From assembly GCA_016188625.1 (NCBI GenBank), contig JACPHL010000076.1, forward strand, positions 1 to 7,293: 7,293 nt of DNA. The letters run 5' to 3'. Under the pieces are notes generated by a model. That model did not search any database. It was given only the letters and a program-made list of their open reading frames with translations, and had not been told where the DNA came from. A program made the position numbers and the translations under genes. The stretch is from Candidatus Rokuibacteriota bacterium. GTDB taxonomy: Bacteria > Methylomirabilota > Methylomirabilia > Rokubacteriales > JACPHL01. This document shows, one piece after another, positions 1 through 7,293 of the stretch (its first letter is position 1; every line of letters starts with the position of its first letter).

Positions 1-667
1 CGGGCCCCGAGCCCGACCGGCGAGAGCCTTTCGCCCTTCCCCTCCACCAGGAGCGCCTCCCAGACCCGCTCGGCGTCGGCGGCGGCCAGGTAGAGCTCGA
101 ACCCGTCCTCGCCGGTGTACCCGGTCCGGGAGACGAGGGCGTCGGCCCCGGCGATCCGTCCCGGGGCCGCCCGGTAGTACCCCAGCGCGGCGACGTCCGG
201 CTCCTCGGCCAGGCGGGCCACCACCGCCTCGGCCCGCGGCCCCTGGACCGCGATCAGCCCCGTCTCGGCGCTCACGTCCCGCACCGTCGCCTCGAGCCCG
301 TCCCGATGCCCCTGGATCCAGGCCCAGTCGCCCGCGATGTTGGCGGCGTTGACGGTCATCAGGTACCGCTCCCCGCCGAGCCGGGCGAGGGTCAGGTCGT
401 CCACGATCCCGCCGGCCTCGTCGCAGAGGAGCGAGTACTGGACCTGGCCGATCTCGAGGGCGGCCACGTCGTTGGTGGTGAGGCGCTGGAGGAAGGCGAG
501 CGCCCCGGGCCCCTCGAGACGGCGCTGCGGACCGTCCGGTGCTCCTCCACGATCCCCGCGTACTGGACGGGCATCTCCCAGCCGCCGAAGCCGATCATCC
601 GGGCGCCCAGCCTGAGGTGGGCGGCATGGAGGGGGGTCCGCTTCAGGGCGGGTCGGGCGCCGCTCAT
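1..667 (-). pseudogene. gcvT: Aminomethyltransferase (glycine cleavage T protein), frameshifted by an internal deletion and cut by the left window edge
   Basis: An intact GcvT would transfer the aminomethyl carbon of glycine from lipoyl-GcvH to tetrahydrofolate, releasing ammonia, in the cytoplasm. The first 50 codons from the ATG at 667 are typical of the family ([30 protein letters not shown]). The original frame then turns to nonsense and stops at 392-394, giving a 91-residue product. From 515 downward a different frame gives 171 clean GcvT residues: [23 protein letters not shown] (whose Asp pair includes the catalytic Asp position), [31 protein letters not shown]. The C-terminal third lies outside the window. 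The start at 667 is chosen because it overlaps the ald stop as ATGA and has AGGGGA 4 bases upstream; an in-frame ATG at 694 would overlap ald further. The family assignment is near certain. Whether the break is biological is not. Confidence 0.9.
512..523 (-). other. Deletion and frameshift junction in gcvT
   Basis: Here the reading frame of the N-terminal part (VRSAV, codons 46-50, ending at 518) meets that of the C-terminal part (EGPGALAF, beginning at 515). Normal T proteins have about 16 residues between the VR pair and the (E/R)GP motif, including the highly conserved FDVSHM. Only 11 bases remain, so about 37 bases appear to be lost (3n+1, which fits the observed frame change). An equally possible reading is an in-frame 36-base loss plus one missing G in the G-run at 503-506. 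The sequence alone does not separate these. Confidence 0.8.
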
Positions 668-1794
668 GCGGTCCCCTGCGCGGTCCCCAGGCACTCCTCG
701 AGGGGGACGGCCTTCTCGCCCATCGCCTCCGCGACGGCCGGGTGGACGATGGCCCCCTCCCAGGCGTTGATCCCCCGGGCCAGGGCCGGGTCCTCCAGGG
801 CGGCGCGGTGAGGCCCCTTGTCGGCGAGCGCGAGGATGTAGGGGAGGGTGGCGTTGGTCAGGGCGAAGGTGGAGGTGCGCGGGACCAGGGCCGGCATGTT
901 GGTCACCGCGTAGTGGACGACGCCGTGCAGGGTGTAGACGGGATCGGCCAGGGTGGTCGGACGGATCGTCTCCACGCAGCCGCCCTGATCGACGGCGACG
1001 TCCACGATGACCGCCCCCTCCTTCATCTCCCGGACCATCGCCTCGGTCACCACCCGGGGCGCCCGGGCCCCGGCGATGAGGACCCCGCCCACCAGGAGGT
1101 CGGCCCGCTGGACGGCCCTGGCGACGTTGAAGCTGTTGGAGTGGAGGGTCACGACCCGGCCCCGGAAGAGATCGTCCACGTAGCGGAGCCGATCCACGCT
1201 GATGTCCAGGAGGGCGACGTCGGCCCCCATCCCGACCGCGACCTTGGCCGCGTTGAGCCCGACGGTCCCGCCCCCGATGATCACCACGTTCGCCGGGGGG
1301 ACCCCGGGCACGCCCGAGAGGAGCACGCCCCGCCCGCCGACCGGCCTCTCCAGGTAGTGGGCGCCGACCTGGACGGCCAGGCGGCCGGCGACCTCGCTCA
1401 TGGGGGTCAGGAGGGGGAGGCTCCGGTCAGGCCGCTGGACGGTCTCGTAGGCGATCGCGATGAGCTTGAGGTCGAGGAGGGTCCGGGTGAGGGAGGGGTC
1501 GGCGGCCAGGTGGAGGTAGGTGAAGAGGACCAGCCCGGGGCGCAGGCGCGGCCACTCGGCGGGGAGGGGCTCCTTGACCTTCAGGATCAGCTCGGCCTCG
1601 CCCCAGACCTGCTCGGCGGGTCCCGGGGAGGCCCCGGCCCGCCGGTACTCCTCGTCGGCGATCCCGCTCCCTGCCCCGGCCCCCGCCTCGACCAGGACCC
1701 GATGCCCGCCCTCGGTCAGGGCCCGGACCCCGGCGGGGGTCAGGGCCACGCGCCGCTCCCCTGCCTTCTGCTCCTTCGGTACGCCGACGATCAT
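664..1794 (-). CDS. ald: Alanine dehydrogenase (NAD-dependent)
   Basis: This cytoplasmic enzyme catalyses reversible oxidative deamination of L-alanine to pyruvate and ammonia with NAD. The 376 residues are close to the family's usual length of about 370. Key family residues are visible: R15 and K74 (in KVKEP) for pyruvate binding, catalytic H95 (FTYLH), the Rossmann loop GGGTVG at 174-179 followed by an acidic D197 that fits NAD rather than NADP, catalytic D269 (VDVAVDQGG), NMPALVP at 299-305 and [10 protein letters not shown] at 307-316. The N terminus MIVGVPKE is canonical, which fixes the ATG. The best Shine-Dalgarno match, AAGGA at 1808-1812, is 13 bases away, longer than ideal. The gene has its own promoter-like region and overlaps gcvT by 4 bases (ATGA at 664-667). 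The last codons contain a 9-base repeat at 12-base spacing (668-676 and 680-688), giving a GTAQGTA tail. Linkage to gcvT suggests amino acid degradation. Confidence 0.97.
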
Positions 1795-1926: not shown

Positions 1927-2718
1927 TCAGAGGGCCAGGAGAGCGCGGAGGCGCTCCGCGAGGAGGCGGCCTTTCTCCTGGGGGGTGCCCTCCAGGAACT
2001 CGCGCCGCCGCTCCCGCGTCCGGGCCTGCCAGACGGCGCCCACCGCGGTCGGCGATCCCTCGAAGCCCAGCCAGGCCGGGTCAACGCCGAGATCGCCCGC
2101 GCCCCAGACGGTCACGGGCGCCGCGCTGTGCCGACGCTCCATGTCCATGAAGCGGGGCTCGTTGACCCCGAGCTTGACGGAGACCACCGCGGGAAGCGGG
2201 ACGGCGATGACCTCGTGCCCCCCCCGAATCTCCCGCTCTCCGACCAGGCGACCGTCCGCCCGGACGGCGAGCGACGTGGCGAACGTGATCTGGGAGGCGC
2301 CGAGCCACTCGGCGATCCCCTGGGGGACCTGCCCGGTGGCGCCGTCGCTCGACTCCTCCCCGCAGAGGATCAGGTCCCACCCCCCGATCTTCTCGATCCC
2401 CTTGGCCAGCGTATAGGAAGTGGCCAGGGTATCGGCCCCCGCGAAGGCGCGATCGGAGAGGAGATAGGCGCTGTCCGCTCCCATGGCGAGCCCGACCTGG
2501 AGGTAGGGCGCCGCGAACGGCGGCCCCATCGAGAGCAGGGAGACGGTCCCGCCGTGCCGCTCCCGGAGCGCGAGCGCCATCTCGATGGCGTTCATGTCCG
2601 GGGGGTTCAGCTCCGAGCGGGCCCGGGCGCGGTCGAGGGTCCGAGTCTCGGGGTCCACCGAGACCTCCTCGGGCTTCGGCACCACCTTCACGCAGACGAC
2701 GGTGTCGAGCGGCCTCAC
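1927..2718 (-). CDS. etfB: Electron transfer flavoprotein beta subunit
   Basis: This is the beta subunit of the soluble ETF heterodimer, which carries electrons between flavoprotein dehydrogenases (often acyl-CoA dehydrogenases) and a further acceptor. The 263 residues match the family. Visible landmarks are CVKVVPKPEEV at 9-19, NPPDMNAIE at 38-46, AMGAD at 78-82, GADTLATSYT at 94-103 and the nucleotide-binding segment GEESSDGATGQV at 120-131 with D125. The GADTLATSYT segment resembles bifurcating-type ETFs, whose beta subunit binds a second FAD in place of AMP, rather than mitochondrial ETF. The start is GTG, overlapping the etfA stop by 4 bases (GTGA at 2715-2718). It has only a weak G-rich ribosome site (2723-2728) 4 bases upstream, so translation is probably coupled to etfA. 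It is the last gene of the operon. Confidence 0.95.
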   Translation of the reverse strand: MRPLDTVVCVKVVPKPEEVSVDPETRTLDRARARSELNPPDMNAIEMALALRERHGGTVSLLSMGPPFAAPYLQVGLAMGADSAYLLSDRAFAGADTLATSYTLAKGIEKIGGWDLILCGEESSDGATGQVPQGIAEWLGASQITFATSLAVRADGRLVGEREIRGGHEVIAVPLPAVVSVKLGVNEPRFMDMERRHSAAPVTVWGAGDLGVDPAWLGFEGSPTAVGAVWQARTRERRREFLEGTPQEKGRLLAERLRALLAL

Positions 2719-3722
2719 GGCGTCCCCCGCTGGAGTTCGGCGATCAGCGCCTCGAGGACCGGAAAGAGGTCGTCCATGACGCAGAGGTCGGCATCCTCAA
2801 AGATCGGCGCGTCGGGGTCGGAGTTGATGGCGACGATCTGCTCGGCGTCCTTGATCCCCACGGTGAATTGGGTGGCCCCGCTGATCCCGCAGACCAGCGC
2901 CAGCCACGGCCGGGTGACGAAACCGGTCTGGCCGATCTGGCGATCCCGGCCGATCCATCCGAGATCGCACGCCACCCGGGAGGCGCCCACCTCGCCGCCC
3001 AGGAGTCGAGCCAGCTCCGTGAGCGGGGTGAAGTCGCCCTTGACGCCCCGGCCGCCGGCCACGATGACCCTGGCGCGGGTGATGTCCACCCCTTCCTGTC
3101 GGACCCGCCGGAGGACCTCGGCCTTGAGGGCCTCGGGCGACAGCGCCACCGACACCTCCTCGATCGTCCCCGCCCGCCTCGGGTCGGGGGGCGGAAGCGG
3201 AAAGATCCCCGGCCGCACCGTCGCCATCTGGGGGCGGTGGTGGGCGCACTTGATGGACGCCATGACGCCGCCGCCGAACCCGGTCACCTCGCCCAGCAGG
3301 AGCCCGGTCCCCTCCTCCCAGGCGAGCCCCGTGCAGTCGGCGGTGAGCCCGGTCCGGAGGCGCACGGCGAGCCGCCCGGCGAGGTCCCGCCCGTTGGGCG
3401 TGGCGCCCAGGAGGAGCGTCTCGGGTTTCCGCTCGAGGATGAGCCGGGCGGCGATCTCGGTCCAGGCCTCGGTGCTGTAGGCGGCCAGCAGCGGGTGGTC
3501 GGCCACCAGGACGTGATCCGCGCCGTGCGCGATGGCCACGCGGGCCGCGTCCTGCACCTGGTGCCCCGGGAGAAGCCCGGTGAGGGCCGTCCCCTTCTGC
3601 GCTGCCAGCTCCCGCCCTCTGCCCAGCAGCTCCAGGGCCACGCCCTCCAGCCTGCCCGCCTCTTGCTCGAGGTAGACCCACAGGCCTGACGCGACCTCGG
3701 GGCCGTACGCCGGAGGGATCAT
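2715..3722 (-). CDS. etfA: Electron transfer flavoprotein alpha subunit
   Basis: This is the alpha subunit of ETF, binding the electron-shuttling FAD in its C-terminal domain. At 335 residues it is a normal length. The N-terminal half is a nucleotide-binding-like fold (residues about 10-190; note LLLGATPNGRDLAGRLA at 103-119). The C-terminal FAD domain shows VAGGRGV at 221-227, GASR at 246-249, GQTG at 264-267, GISGATQF at 279-286, VAIN at 297-300 and APIFEDAD at 305-312. The position after Q285, His in mitochondrial and many bacterial ETFs (SGAIQH), is Phe here. The ATG overlaps the preceding stop as ATGA (3719-3722), with AGGGG at 3729-3733 six bases upstream. The gene order is alpha before beta; many bacterial ETF operons have beta first. 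No N-terminal ferredoxin domain is present. Confidence 0.95.
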   Translation of the reverse strand: MIPPAYGPEVASGLWVYLEQEAGRLEGVALELLGRGRELAAQKGTALTGLLPGHQVQDAARVAIAHGADHVLVADHPLLAAYSTEAWTEIAARLILERKPETLLLGATPNGRDLAGRLAVRLRTGLTADCTGLAWEEGTGLLLGEVTGFGGGVMASIKCAHHRPQMATVRPGIFPLPPPDPRRAGTIEEVSVALSPEALKAEVLRRVRQEGVDITRARVIVAGGRGVKGDFTPLTELARLLGGEVGASRVACDLGWIGRDRQIGQTGFVTRPWLALVCGISGATQFTVGIKDAEQIVAINSDPDAPIFEDADLCVMDDLFPVLEALIAELQRGTP

Positions 3723-4885
3723 GAGTCGCCCCTCCCCTCCCCCAGCGCCTGGCAGGCCAGCTCGCTGAGGTCCAGGACCCTGAGCCGGCCGTCGAGCCCC
3801 TTGGCGCTGTCCTCAAGGCAGAGGACGCAGAACGGGCAGGACGTCGCGAGGACCTCGGCCCCGGCCTCCTCGGCCTGGCGGACCCTCAGGTCCCCGAAGC
3901 GCTCGCCGGCCTCCGTCTCGAGCCACATGCGCCCGCCCCCCCCGCCGCAGCAGAGGGCGTCCTCCCGGCTCGAGGACATCTCCACCACGGTCACCCCGGG
4001 GATGGCGGCGAGGAGCCTCCGGGGCGGATCGTAGAGCCCGTGCCGCCGGCCCAGGTAGCACGGATCGTGATACGTCACCGTCGCCGCCACGTTCTTCGCG
4101 AACCCGAGCCGCCCCTCGTCCACGAGGCGCGCCAGCAGCTCGGTGGAGTGCAGCACCTCGATCTCACCGTCGAACGGGTAGCGGGTCCGGAACATGTCGA
4201 AGCAGTGCGGCGAGAGCGCGACCAGGCGCCGGACCCCCGCGTCCCGAAAGCGCCGGCTGGTCGCCTCGACCACCTCGGCCAGGTACCCCTCCTGCCCCAC
4301 CACCCGCACCGCCTCCCCGCAGCACGGCTCATCGGGGAGCACGCCGAAGCTCACCCCGGACGCGCCCAGGAGTCTCGCCAGGCTCCGCGCCACCTTCTGG
4401 CTCCGGCGGTCGTAGGTGGCCGTGCACCCCACATAGAGGAGGATCTCCTGCTCGCCCGTGAAGGCCGGCACGTCCAGGCCCCTACTCCACGCGGTGCGCG
4501 CCGAGGGCGGCTGGTCCCAGGGGTTCCCGTCCCAGTGGACCGCCCAGAGCATGGTCGAAAGGCCCTTCGGCACCGACCGCCGTTTCCACGCGAGCTGGCG
4601 CAGGGCCAGGAGGACCTCGCTCACGGGGACGCCCCGGGGACAGAGGGCCTCGCAGGCCCCGCAGGTGGTGCAGCGCCAGATCGCCTCCCCCCACCGCTCG
4701 ACGCCGAGCTGGGCCAGGCGGACCAGTCGCCGGACGCTCACCGGCTCCGCCTGGACCAGCCCCCAGGGGCAGACCGCGGTGCAGACCCCGCACTGGAAGC
4801 AGGGGGCCGCCATGCCCCGGGTGGCCTCGACGACCTCCTCCCAGACGGCGTCGTCGAGGACGCGAGGCGCTCCCGACTCACTCAT
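3719..4885 (-). CDS. HdrC/HdrB-like iron-sulfur protein: 2x[4Fe-4S] plus two CCG domains
   Basis: This 388-residue soluble protein combines the parts of heterodisulfide reductase subunits C and B, as in HdrD-like and GlpC-like proteins. Two classical [4Fe-4S] motifs lie at C29, C32, C35, C39 and C72, C75, C78, C82. CCG domain 1 has C154, C188-C189 (EPCCG) and C228, but the usual final CxxC reads C-F-D-M, so its last Cys is missing. CCG domain 2 is complete: C276, C312-C313 (LCCGGGGG) and C350/C353 (SCPFC), which fits a non-cubane [4Fe-4S] cluster. No membrane segment is seen. The ATG at 4885 has an excellent GGAGGT (4894-4899) 8 bases upstream. Upstream in-frame codons to 4957 lie inside the previous gene and do not look like protein of this family. 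It probably links HdrA to EtfAB electronically. The physiological substrate, disulfide or otherwise, is unknown. Confidence 0.9.
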   Translation of the reverse strand: MSESGAPRVLDDAVWEEVVEATRGMAAPCFQCGVCTAVCPWGLVQAEPVSVRRLVRLAQLGVERWGEAIWRCTTCGACEALCPRGVPVSEVLLALRQLAWKRRSVPKGLSTMLWAVHWDGNPWDQPPSARTAWSRGLDVPAFTGEQEILLYVGCTATYDRRSQKVARSLARLLGASGVSFGVLPDEPCCGEAVRVVGQEGYLAEVVEATSRRFRDAGVRRLVALSPHCFDMFRTRYPFDGEIEVLHSTELLARLVDEGRLGFAKNVAATVTYHDPCYLGRRHGLYDPPRRLLAAIPGVTVVEMSSSREDALCCGGGGGRMWLETEAGERFGDLRVRQAEEAGAEVLATSCPFCVLCLEDSAKGLDGRLRVLDLSELACQALGEGRGDS

Positions 4886-7293
4886 CCGGTTCCACCTCCG
4901 CCCGGGAGGCCAGGTGCTCCTGGACCACCTCGTGCATCTCGCGCATCTTGGCCGCAAACTCCTTGCCCTCGGACGCCGAGATCCACCGCAGCTGGAAGCG
5001 CTCCGGCGCGATCCCTCGACGGGTCCACTTCCTCTGCCAGAGACCGAAGCGCTTCAGCGTGAACTGGTTGGCGTAGTTGTAGTGGCAGTCCGAGCCCCTC
5101 TCGGGGAGCCGGCAGCCGGTCACCAGCACCGCCCCCGCGCCCGCCTCGAGGGCCCGGTCGATGAAGTCCCCTTCGATGCGGGCCGTCCGGATGATCCTCG
5201 CCGAGGGCGGGTACTGGATCTTCTCGATCCCCGCCTGGTCCGCGCCCGCGTAGGAGCACCAGTTGCAGGTGAAGACCAGCACCTTCTCCTCGGGATGCTC
5301 CGCCAGCGCCGCGTCGATCTGGGCCAGGATCTGCTCCTTGGTGAAGTAGGGCATCTCGAGGGCGTCGTGATTGCATGTCGCGGCGCAGTTGCCGCACCCC
5401 ATGCACGCCGCCTCGACGACCCGGACCTTCCCCTCCTTCACCTTGCCGAGCTGCTCGATAGCCCCGAAGGGACAGGCCGGGACGCAGAGCATGCAGCCGT
5501 TGCAGAGGTCCGGCTTGAGCCGGGCCGTCAGCGGCTCCTTCTCGATGCCGCCCCTGGCCAGGAGCGCGCCGGCCTTGGCCGCGGCCGCCAGGGCCTGGGC
5601 CACGCTCTCCCTCACGTCCTTGGGCGCCTGACAGGCCCCCGCCAGGTAGATCCCCTGGGAGGCGGTCTCCGCCGGCCCGAGCTTCGGGTGCAGCTCCAGG
5701 AGGAAGCCGTCCTCGCTCTTCGCGATCTTCAGTTGGCCGGAGAGCGACTCCTCCTGCGGTCGAAGCGCCTGGACCAGGACCAGGAGATCGGTCGGGATCC
5801 TGACCGGCTCCCCGAGGAGCAGGTCGTGGAGGATCACCGATCTGCCGTCGAACGCGATGACCTCCTCGGGGGGCCGATCGGCCGGGTAGCGGAAGACCTG
5901 AACGCCGGCCCGCATGGCCTCTTCGTACAGCTCCTCGGCCTGGCGGCTGAAGGTGCGGATGTCCTTGAAGAGGACGCGGACCTGCTTCCCCTCGCGCCTG
6001 AGCCTCAGGGCCTGACCGATCATGGAGGCGCAGCAGTAACGGGAGCAACCCGCGCCGTTCTCGCGCGCCCCCATGCATCCCACGAAGGTGACCCGACGGG
6101 CCTCTACCTGCGGGAGCATCCCCTCCAATTCCAGGTTGGTGACGACCCGGGAGTCGAGGCCGTAGAGGAACTCGGTGGGCGTGTAGGGGCGGGCGCCCGT
6201 GGCGAGGATCACGGCCCCGACGCCGAGCTCGGTGCCATCCAGCAATCGGGCCGAGAAGTTCCCCACGAAGCCCCCGATGTGCTCCACCTCGGTCCCCAGG
6301 TGGAGGTGGGCTCCCACCTCGTGCAGCTCCTGTTCCTGCCGCGCCAGAAGCTCCTCCGCCTTCAGCCCCGAGGGGGCCAGCTCGTCGAGATAGCGGAGCA
6401 GCCCTCCCAGCTTCTGCTCCCGCTCCACCAGATGGGTCTCGTACCCCTGGCGGGCCAGGGCCGTGGCCGCGGTCATGCCGGCGATCCCGCCGCCGATCAC
6501 CAGCGCCCGCTGGACCACCGGGGTCCGGGTCACGGTGAGGGGCTCTAGGCGCCGCGCCTTCTCCACCCCCATCGCGACCATATCCATGGCCTTCAGGGTG
6601 GCCCCCTCCCGTTCCTGCTTGTGGACCCAGGAGTCCTGGTTCCTCACATTCACCATCTCCAGGAGGAAGGGGTTCAGGCCCGCTCGGGCCAGGACCCTCC
6701 GGAAGATCGCCTCGTGGGTCTTGGGGGAACAGGCGGTGACCACGACCCGATTGATCCCCTTCGCGCGGATCGCCTCCTCGATCTCCTGCTGGGTGTTGCC
6801 CGCGCAGGAGTACATCTGATCCTGCGCCCAGACCACGTCGGGGAGGCGTCGGGCGTATTCGACGAGGCGCGGGACATCCACCACGCCGGCGATATTGGAG
6901 CCGCAGTGGCAGACGAAGACGCCCACCCTCAGCGTCTCGACCCCCGCCAGCGGCGGGACATGAGGCTCCTCCGCGAACGAGCGGGAGGAGAGGTGGGCGA
7001 GCGCCAGGGAGGCGGCGGCCCCGGCCTCGGCCACGCTGTCCGGAATATCCTTGGGGCCGCTGGCGCAGCCCGCGGAGTATATCCCGTGGCGGGTGGTGGC
7101 GCTCAGCCCGGCCCGCCGCTCCACCGCCCGGATGAAGCCGTCCTGGTCCAGCTCGATCCCCAGAACGCGGGTCAGATCCGCGAGGCCATCGGGAGGGCGG
7201 ACCGCCGTGGCGAGGACCACCATGTCGAAGGCCTCATCTCTGAGCCGGCCCGCTTCCGTGTCCTCGAAGCGCACCCGGAGCTGGCTCCCGTCA
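4878..7293 (-). CDS. HdrA-like flavoprotein, tandem HdrA modules with ferredoxin and MvhD domains (5' end outside window)
   Basis: This is a cytoplasmic electron-transfer flavoprotein of the heterodisulfide reductase A family. The frame is open to the right edge; the GTG at 7272-7274, used here as residue 1, is internal. Residues 1-95 are the end of a first FAD module (GIYSAGCASGPKDIPDS at 64-80). A full second HdrA module follows: an N-terminal cluster domain with C122, C124, C157 and C182; FAD Rossmann motif GGGIAG at 261-266 with E284; a cysteine-rich site with C400, C410, C414 and C415; and GIYLAGACQAPKDVRES at 541-557. Next comes a 2x[4Fe-4S] ferredoxin domain (C591, C594, C597, C601; C624, C627, C630, C634). 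Last is an MvhD-like [2Fe-2S] domain with C670, C673, C721 and C730. No ferredoxin domain separates the two flavin modules. The stop overlaps the next gene by 8 bases. HdrA flavins perform electron bifurcation in methanogens; that activity here is inferred. Confidence 0.93.
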   Translation of the reverse strand, partial: DGSQLRVRFEDTEAGRLRDEAFDMVVLATAVRPPDGLADLTRVLGIELDQDGFIRAVERRAGLSATTRHGIYSAGCASGPKDIPDSVAEAGAAASLALAHLSSRSFAEEPHVPPLAGVETLRVGVFVCHCGSNIAGVVDVPRLVEYARRLPDVVWAQDQMYSCAGNTQQEIEEAIRAKGINRVVVTACSPKTHEAIFRRVLARAGLNPFLLEMVNVRNQDSWVHKQEREGATLKAMDMVAMGVEKARRLEPLTVTRTPVVQRALVIGGGIAGMTAATALARQGYETHLVEREQKLGGLLRYLDELAPSGLKAEELLARQEQELHEVGAHLHLGTEVEHIGGFVGNFSARLLDGTELGVGAVILATGARPYTPTEFLYGLDSRVVTNLELEGMLPQVEARRVTFVGCMGARENGAGCSRYCCASMIGQALRLRREGKQVRVLFKDIRTFSRQAEELYEEAMRAGVQVFRYPADRPPEEVIAFDGRSVILHDLLLGEPVRIPTDLLVLVQALRPQEESLSGQLKIAKSEDGFLLELHPKLGPAETASQGIYLAGACQAPKDVRESVAQALAAAAKAGALLARGGIEKEPLTARLKPDLCNGCMLCVPACPFGAIEQLGKVKEGKVRVVEAACMGCGNCAATCNHDALEMPYFTKEQILAQIDAALAEHPEEKVLVFTCNWCSYAGADQAGIEKIQYPPSARIIRTARIEGDFIDRALEAGAGAVLVTGCRLPERGSDCHYNYANQFTLKRFGLWQRKWTRRGIAPERFQLRWISASEGKEFAAKMREMHEVVQEHLASRAEVEPDE
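4894..4899 (-). promoter_or_regulatory. Strong ribosome binding site of the HdrC/B-like gene
   Basis: GGAGGT on the minus strand with an 8-base spacer to the ATG at 4885. It lies within the last codons of the HdrA-like gene and settles the start against the longer open frame beginning at 4957. Confidence 0.75.

Follow-up and report, generated by a model that had tools for sequence, protein, structure and literature searches.

A conserved KorDABC–HdrA–CCG–EtfAB gene block as a possible soluble 2-oxoacid:NAD(H) oxidoreductase in bacteria and archaea

Gene clusters that combine HdrA-type proteins with other redox modules have been described in several settings. In the Kor–Flx–Hdr cluster of the reductive tricarboxylic acid (rTCA) cycle, genes for a four-subunit 2-oxoacid:ferredoxin oxidoreductase (Kor) are interspersed with HdrA-type genes, and a direct electron link between Kor and Hdr has been proposed (Rubin-Blum 2019, PMC6315080). 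The NADH module of that cluster is FlxABCD, accompanied by tfrAB. In the type II sHdr arrangement, including Hdr cluster II of Sulfobacillus (PMC4378227), HdrA, a CCG protein and the electron transfer flavoprotein (ETF) subunits EtfA and EtfB are encoded together. Here, we analyze a 7,293-nucleotide stretch of DNA from a Candidatus Rokuibacteriota bacterium (GCA_016188625.1, contig JACPHL010000076.1), referred to at its full length as the window. Its minus strand encodes, in order, HdrA, CCG, EtfA and EtfB, with successive overlaps of 8, 4 and 4 bases. Comparison with related loci suggests, with a probability that we place at about 0.5, that these four genes make up the latter half of an operon whose eight genes encode a single soluble 2-oxoacid:NAD(H) oxidoreductase complex, KorDABC–HdrA–CCG–EtfAB, in which EtfAB would act as the NAD(H) port.

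The eight-gene block is, as judged from the encoded proteins, different from both the Kor–Flx–Hdr and the type II sHdr clusters in gene content, ETF type and CCG type. It contains no FlxABCD; EtfAB stands in its place, together with an EtfD-like CCG protein and a two-FAD HdrA carrying a fused MvhD domain. Unlike the block, type II sHdr clusters contain sulfur-relay and lipoate genes, a membrane CCG protein and an ETF of another class, and they lack Kor. The uncommon wiring of HdrA, CCG and ETF proposed in a sequence-only reading of the window is borne out, in that it differs from the standard arrangements. No description of the block was found in the searchable open-access literature, with subscription papers and preprints lying outside the search.

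Content, order and spread of the block

Pfam and NCBIfam verify the families of all four window open reading frames (ORFs), and the overlapping HdrA–CCG–EtfA–EtfB set is present on the minus strand as the sequence-only reading described it. The window is an entire contig (C150), one of 344 in a genome that is 84% complete, and the HdrA ORF runs off its end. Partner genes are not visible in the window because the contig stops inside HdrA. The earlier statement that no partner is in view thus holds for the contig and fails for the relatives, in which KorDABC lies directly upstream of HdrA and the full unit reads KorD–KorA–KorB–KorC–HdrA–CCG–EtfA–EtfB. The four-chain unit envisaged from the window must accordingly be enlarged to include KorDABC.

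The named genomes were scanned with an HdrA alignment and the neighborhoods annotated by tblastn. The block is complete, collinear and on one strand in 29 of 30 homologous loci, and the remaining locus begins at a contig edge; the adjacency on which the sequence-only reading depended is conserved. The full block occurs wherever HdrA identity is at least 54% and the contig is long enough. Its hosts range from bacteria of soils and hot springs to archaea and comprise Rokubacteriota, Chloroflexota (Thermoflexus, Anaerolinea and others), Planctomycetota, bacterium HR16, Nitrososphaerota and Thermoplasmatota, and a Coatesbacteria contig carries KorDABC–HdrA–CCG as far as its end. The block is rare: a full-length HdrA of at least 50% identity was found in 7 of 400 Chloroflexota genomes and, within the Thermoplasmata phylum, in 5 of 292. 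The block HdrAs form a single clade (support 100/100) with archaeal and bacterial branches, and pairwise divergence of HdrA correlates with that of every other subunit tested (r 0.93–0.95), which partly reflects shared ancestry. Related HdrAs with 29–45% identity lie in different clusters that lack an ETF, and no recurring neighbors beyond the eight genes were found around the block loci. The retention of gene order across two domains, together with the parallel divergence of the genes, supports the earlier proposal of one functional unit.

A second contig of the window's own genome, C309, contains KorDABC and the N-terminal part of a similar HdrA. Where this HdrA overlaps that of the window, the two are no more than 81% identical in nucleotides and 85% in protein, and we read C309 as a second strain or copy, not as the literal continuation of the window contig.

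Several loci depart from the common arrangement. One Rokubacterium (L050, G033:C134) has an insertion of ∼890 bases at the KorB/KorC junction (2316–3208), and in two Thermoflexus relatives (L134 and L135) another, divergent Kor (31%) is encoded in the opposite orientation immediately upstream. In L049 (G030:C73) the order is KorD–KorA–HdrA–FlpD, an FNR-type NAD-binding protein, then KorB–KorC–CCG. The FNR-type protein takes the place of the ETF, an exchange seen in L049 only, and by its gene content this locus is a sister arrangement with one platform and another NAD module. L047 (G087:C193) clusters aldehyde:ferredoxin oxidoreductase, a ferredoxin-like protein, CCG, HdrA (42%) and MvhD; on the same grounds, it joins a different electron donor to the Hdr platform.

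Cofactor sites and partners of the subunits

Kor subunits of the relatives carry the expected signatures: YPITP in every KorA that covers the site, a WCPGCG-type motif in KorB, and eight cysteines in KorD. Indicators of the Kor substrate conflict. The best structural match of KorB is the 2-oxoglutarate:ferredoxin oxidoreductase of the Helicobacter pylori type (8ys5), and the β-subunit residues at the positions of StOFOR K49 and L123 are Arg and Met; the K49R substitution in StOFOR favors pyruvate (PMC5020499). A missing lipoate-dependent 2-oxoglutarate dehydrogenase E1 was considered as a correlate of the block and set aside as not discriminating; this E1 is rare throughout the order, in which 9 of 59 members carry it, none of them bearing the block.

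HdrA contains two FAD halves and a fused C-terminal MvhD tail. This FlpD/MvhD domain, which the sequence-only reading did not mention, is the module at which electron-donor enzymes classically dock. The window copy is 82–87% identical to HdrAs of Rokubacteriota metagenome-assembled genomes (MAGs); orthologs in the same order reach 1,132 aa, and HdrA of relatives spans 1,126–1,156 aa. An AlphaFold2 model of HdrA has a predicted TM score (pTM) of 0.85, and one 429-column stretch superimposes on the HdrA of 8rvu with a TM score of 0.94 and 46% identity. Nearly all iron–sulfur cysteines are invariant in the clade, including the Cys ligands of half 1. This half, which lies outside the window and is seen in relatives, is closer than half 2 to the FAD domain of methanogen HdrA. 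The lysine that follows its CCMYxx motif (K274) is present in all 30 first halves, whereas in the second half the FAD-adjacent Cys motif is kept and the lysine position is occupied by G, Q, H, N, K, R or Y. By alignment with 5odc, we take this lysine to be the one that lies close to the flavin of bifurcating HdrA. A general Arg/Lys rule for bifurcating flavins has been formulated (PMC9232219). HdrA of the block thus has the FAD domain, Fe–S ligands, lysine near flavin N5 and MvhD-type entry module of the bifurcating methanogen HdrABC–MvhAGD and HdrA2 systems (5odc, 8rvu, 7bkb). It differs from them in its second FAD half, and the block has no separate HdrB, hydrogenase, formate dehydrogenase or F420 module. 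In place of a separate HdrC and an HdrB whose two CCG motifs are complete, the block has a single CCG protein.

The CCG protein is closer to EtfD than to HdrB/C. Its best solved relative is mycobacterial EtfD (Mycobacterium smegmatis, 9ojn; 9.3e-54 by sequence, TM score 0.82 by fold), and its first CCG domain has a C..CC..C pattern lacking the terminal CxxC. EtfD/EMO proteins have an N-terminal cytochrome-b-like membrane domain and serve acyl-CoA dehydrogenases, and Mycobacterium tuberculosis EtfD interacts with EtfB (PMC8593149). The CCG protein of the block, in contrast, is a 388-residue protein with no such domain and no strong hydrophobic segment, and it adjoins HdrA; this agrees with the soluble protein set predicted from the window. 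The resemblance to EtfD, an ETF partner, is the best hint that CCG may exchange electrons with EtfAB.

The nearest relatives of EtfA and EtfB in the PDB are all bifurcating ETFs (Ldh-EtfAB 7qh2, CarCDE 6fah, Bcd-EtfAB 5ol2, EtfABCX 7koe). The RxFxG motif of the NAD(H) site is present in 27 of 29 block EtfBs and lacking in most other EtfBs of the same genomes, and SPT is conserved in bacteria. Unlike these relatives, the block ETF has an altered β-FAD motif (reference DGDTAQVGP), which is DGATGQVPP-like in bacteria and degenerate in Thermoplasmata, and no dehydrogenase partner in the operon. Of 29 block EtfAs, 28 have Val and one has Thr at the position that faces β-FAD N5 (LctC R205), and none has Arg, whereas Arg is found in 18 of 20 other EtfAs of the same genomes. 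The register of this position was verified by D189 and R205 of 7qh2. The VRPG arginine of EtfA was considered as the N5 arginine and ruled out, since the 7qh2 numbering points to the R of RPAFGG, which is missing in the block. Bifurcation in LctBC and CarDE depends on this arginine, and the R205A substitution in Ldh-EtfAB (LctBC) abolishes bifurcation while leaving NADH:dye activity (PMC9232219). With RxFxG kept and the N5 arginine lost, we infer from sequence that the block ETF binds NAD(H) and is not a bifurcator. The earlier idea that ETF electrons are split through HdrA is better replaced by an NAD(H) port that would feed, or be fed by, HdrA. In one Thermoplasmatota MAG (L067, 15713–17413), a second EtfB–EtfA pair directly follows the block; it has RxFxG, with Lys where the N5 arginine would be, and may be an ETF that truly bifurcates next to one that has lost the arginine.

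No acyl-CoA dehydrogenase recurs as a neighbor of the block, and this candidate was rejected on that ground. Acyl-CoA dehydrogenases occur in 21 of 23 block genomes, and two (G099 and G102) have none detected and the block EtfA as their sole EtfA, although MAG incompleteness may account for this. The other block genomes contain separate ETFs, most of them without RxFxG and many beside acyl-CoA dehydrogenases. ETF:quinone oxidoreductase (ETF-QO) was not found in 20 of 23 block genomes, an argument again limited by MAG incompleteness. Because ETF-QO is mostly missing and G099 and G102 lack an acyl-CoA dehydrogenase and another EtfA, the block itself is the most economical place to seek the partner of its ETF; the acyl-CoA dehydrogenase partner suggested earlier appears unlikely.

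A putative electron path and competing readings

In the 2-oxoacid:NAD(H) oxidoreductase reading, KorABC and KorD would oxidize a 2-oxoacid, an intermediate of amino-acid metabolism or the TCA cycle, with CoA and pass low-potential electrons to HdrA, from whose Fe–S/FAD chain they would reach the CCG protein. CCG would exchange electrons with the ETF shuttle flavin in an EtfD-like manner, and the β-flavin of EtfAB would exchange hydride with NAD+. The net reaction would be 2-oxoacid + CoA + NAD+ ↔ acyl-CoA + CO2 + NADH, a flavin/Fe–S counterpart of the lipoate-based 2-oxoacid dehydrogenases. As NAD(H) port, EtfAB would take the place of the Flx module of Kor–Flx–Hdr clusters. If electrons are bifurcated or confurcated, this would take place at the FAD in half 1 of HdrA, and a high-potential partner would act at the non-cubane cluster of CCG. 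We favor the oxidative direction because the hosts are largely heterotrophic and the best-studied of the relatives, Thermoflexus, is a proteolytic heterotroph (PMC8129789).

Several points weigh against this assignment. Kor genes are absent from the window contig, and the C309 copy is merely 81% identical in nucleotide sequence. Absences from MAGs can be incompleteness. The altered β-FAD motif is the main caveat to NAD(H) binding by the block ETF, and its degeneration in Thermoplasmata suggests that NAD use may not be universal. Electron transfer from Kor to NAD+ alone is downhill by established potentials and needs no protein as elaborate as HdrA. That a complete HdrA is nevertheless retained suggests that CCG may also serve a third partner, of high potential; no gene for one is encoded near the block. 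A larger claim, held tentatively and with clearly less confidence, is that the block represents a new class of flavin-based energy coupling in bacteria and archaea. An ex-bifurcating ETF without its arginine would then serve a two-FAD HdrA as NAD(H) port, and this HdrA would couple NADH, 2-oxoacid/acyl-CoA at Kor and a high-potential partner at the EtfD-like CCG.

The same subunits could run reductively, with NADH entering through EtfAB and HdrA half 1 splitting the electron pair between a disulfide or other high-potential acceptor at CCG and Kor, which would carry out reductive carboxylation. The invariant K274, the complete set of Hdr Fe–S ligands and the precedent of korABCD interspersed with flxABCD–hdrABC and tfrAB in rTCA symbionts (PMC6315080) are consistent with this scheme. 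We nonetheless regard it as unlikely, given that the block encodes no tfrAB or other acceptor, that the first CCG domain lacks its terminal CxxC and that Thermoflexus lives by proteolysis. More improbable is a confurcating system in which EtfAB is supplied by acyl-CoA dehydrogenases and HdrA joins these electrons with those of low potential from Kor to reduce a mid-potential acceptor. EtfAB family membership, the wide occurrence of acyl-CoA dehydrogenases and the scarcity of ETF-QO would fit, but the block has no mid-potential acceptor module, G099 and G102 have no detected acyl-CoA dehydrogenase or other ETF, and elsewhere the separate ETFs, mostly without the NAD motif, adjoin these dehydrogenases.

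NADH electrons might instead be bifurcated by the ETF, as they are in Bcd-Etf, Car and Ldh-Etf, in which case the complex would contain, one after the other, bifurcating flavins of two different families. The closest structural relatives of the ETF and its NAD-site motifs point that way; the Val or Thr at the N5 position in all 29 EtfAs, the effect of R205A in LctBC and the lack of a ferredoxin domain in EtfA make it quite improbable. We consider it just as hard to sustain that Kor, HdrA–CCG and EtfAB are separate enzymes that share an operon and act on free ferredoxin. Intergenic gaps between block genes in several lineages would allow this, but the eight-gene order is strict over two domains, gene distances are correlated, and no block gene is missing wherever the contig allows. 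A sulfur-oxidizing sHdr-type role was rejected on gene content and ETF type and is the most remote of these readings. Published HdrABC–EtfAB–CCG clusters in Sulfobacillus (PMC4378227) give it a precedent, and such clusters exist separately in related Rokubacteria: L051 (G033:C7) has TusA- and DsrE-like genes with HdrA, CCG, EtfB and EtfA, and L038 (G038:C212) has HdrA, CCG, EtfB and EtfA. The EtfBs of both lack the NAD motif, and in the EtfA of this sHdr type Ser occupies the N5 position. Among the neighbors of the block, neither TusA nor DsrE, nor a lipoate-binding protein or lipoate ligase, is recurrent; the block has Kor instead.

The window locus and its significance

Features of the window are collected in the table. 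An alanine dehydrogenase gene (664–1794) follows EtfB on the same strand and is not kept beside the block in other genomes. Downstream of it, GcvT (3–694, minus strand) is broken, with its N-terminal part and the remainder in different frames and the intervening stretch gone, through either gene decay or an assembly error. The window's own genome also contains QmoABC-like genes (L012, G000:C242).

Table. Positions of block genes and sites in the window
Feature	Position	Strand	Basis or remark
HdrA, last 804 of about 1,130 aa, with HdrA N-terminal domain, second FAD half, two [4Fe-4S] and the MvhD tail	4878–7293	minus	5′ end outside contig
HdrA second FAD half (Pyr_redox_2)	5592–6506	minus	Pfam
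HdrA two-[4Fe-4S] ferredoxin domain, 8 Cys invariant in clade	5361–5513	minus	Pfam and cysteine conservation
FlpD/MvhD domain, HdrA C-terminal fusion	4917–5282	minus	PF02662, E 3.3e-32; PDB matches
CCG protein, two [4Fe-4S] (HdrC-like) and two CCG domains, soluble, EtfD-like	3719–4885	minus	
EtfA, nearest to bifurcating ETFs, without N-terminal ferredoxin domain	2715–3722	minus	
EtfA codon V146, β-FAD N5 arginine position (LctC R205)	3285–3287	minus	
EtfB, nearest to bifurcating ETFs	1927–2718	minus	
EtfB RAFAG, RxFxG NAD(H)-binding motif	2437–2451	minus	Motif definition PMC9232219
EtfB DGATGQVPQ, variant of β-FAD motif DGDTAQVGP	2320–2346	minus	

Kor enzymes are usually thought to reduce free ferredoxin, and how this ferredoxin is reoxidized in organisms without obvious ferredoxin outlets is an open question. 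If the 2-oxoacid:NAD(H) oxidoreductase reading is correct, the block would be a dedicated Kor-to-NAD(H) machine found in two domains of life and would answer that question for these lineages. It would also be a case of an ETF reused as an NAD port. The substitution of Val for Arg in a family that keeps its NAD site would then provide a natural test of the N5-arginine rule.

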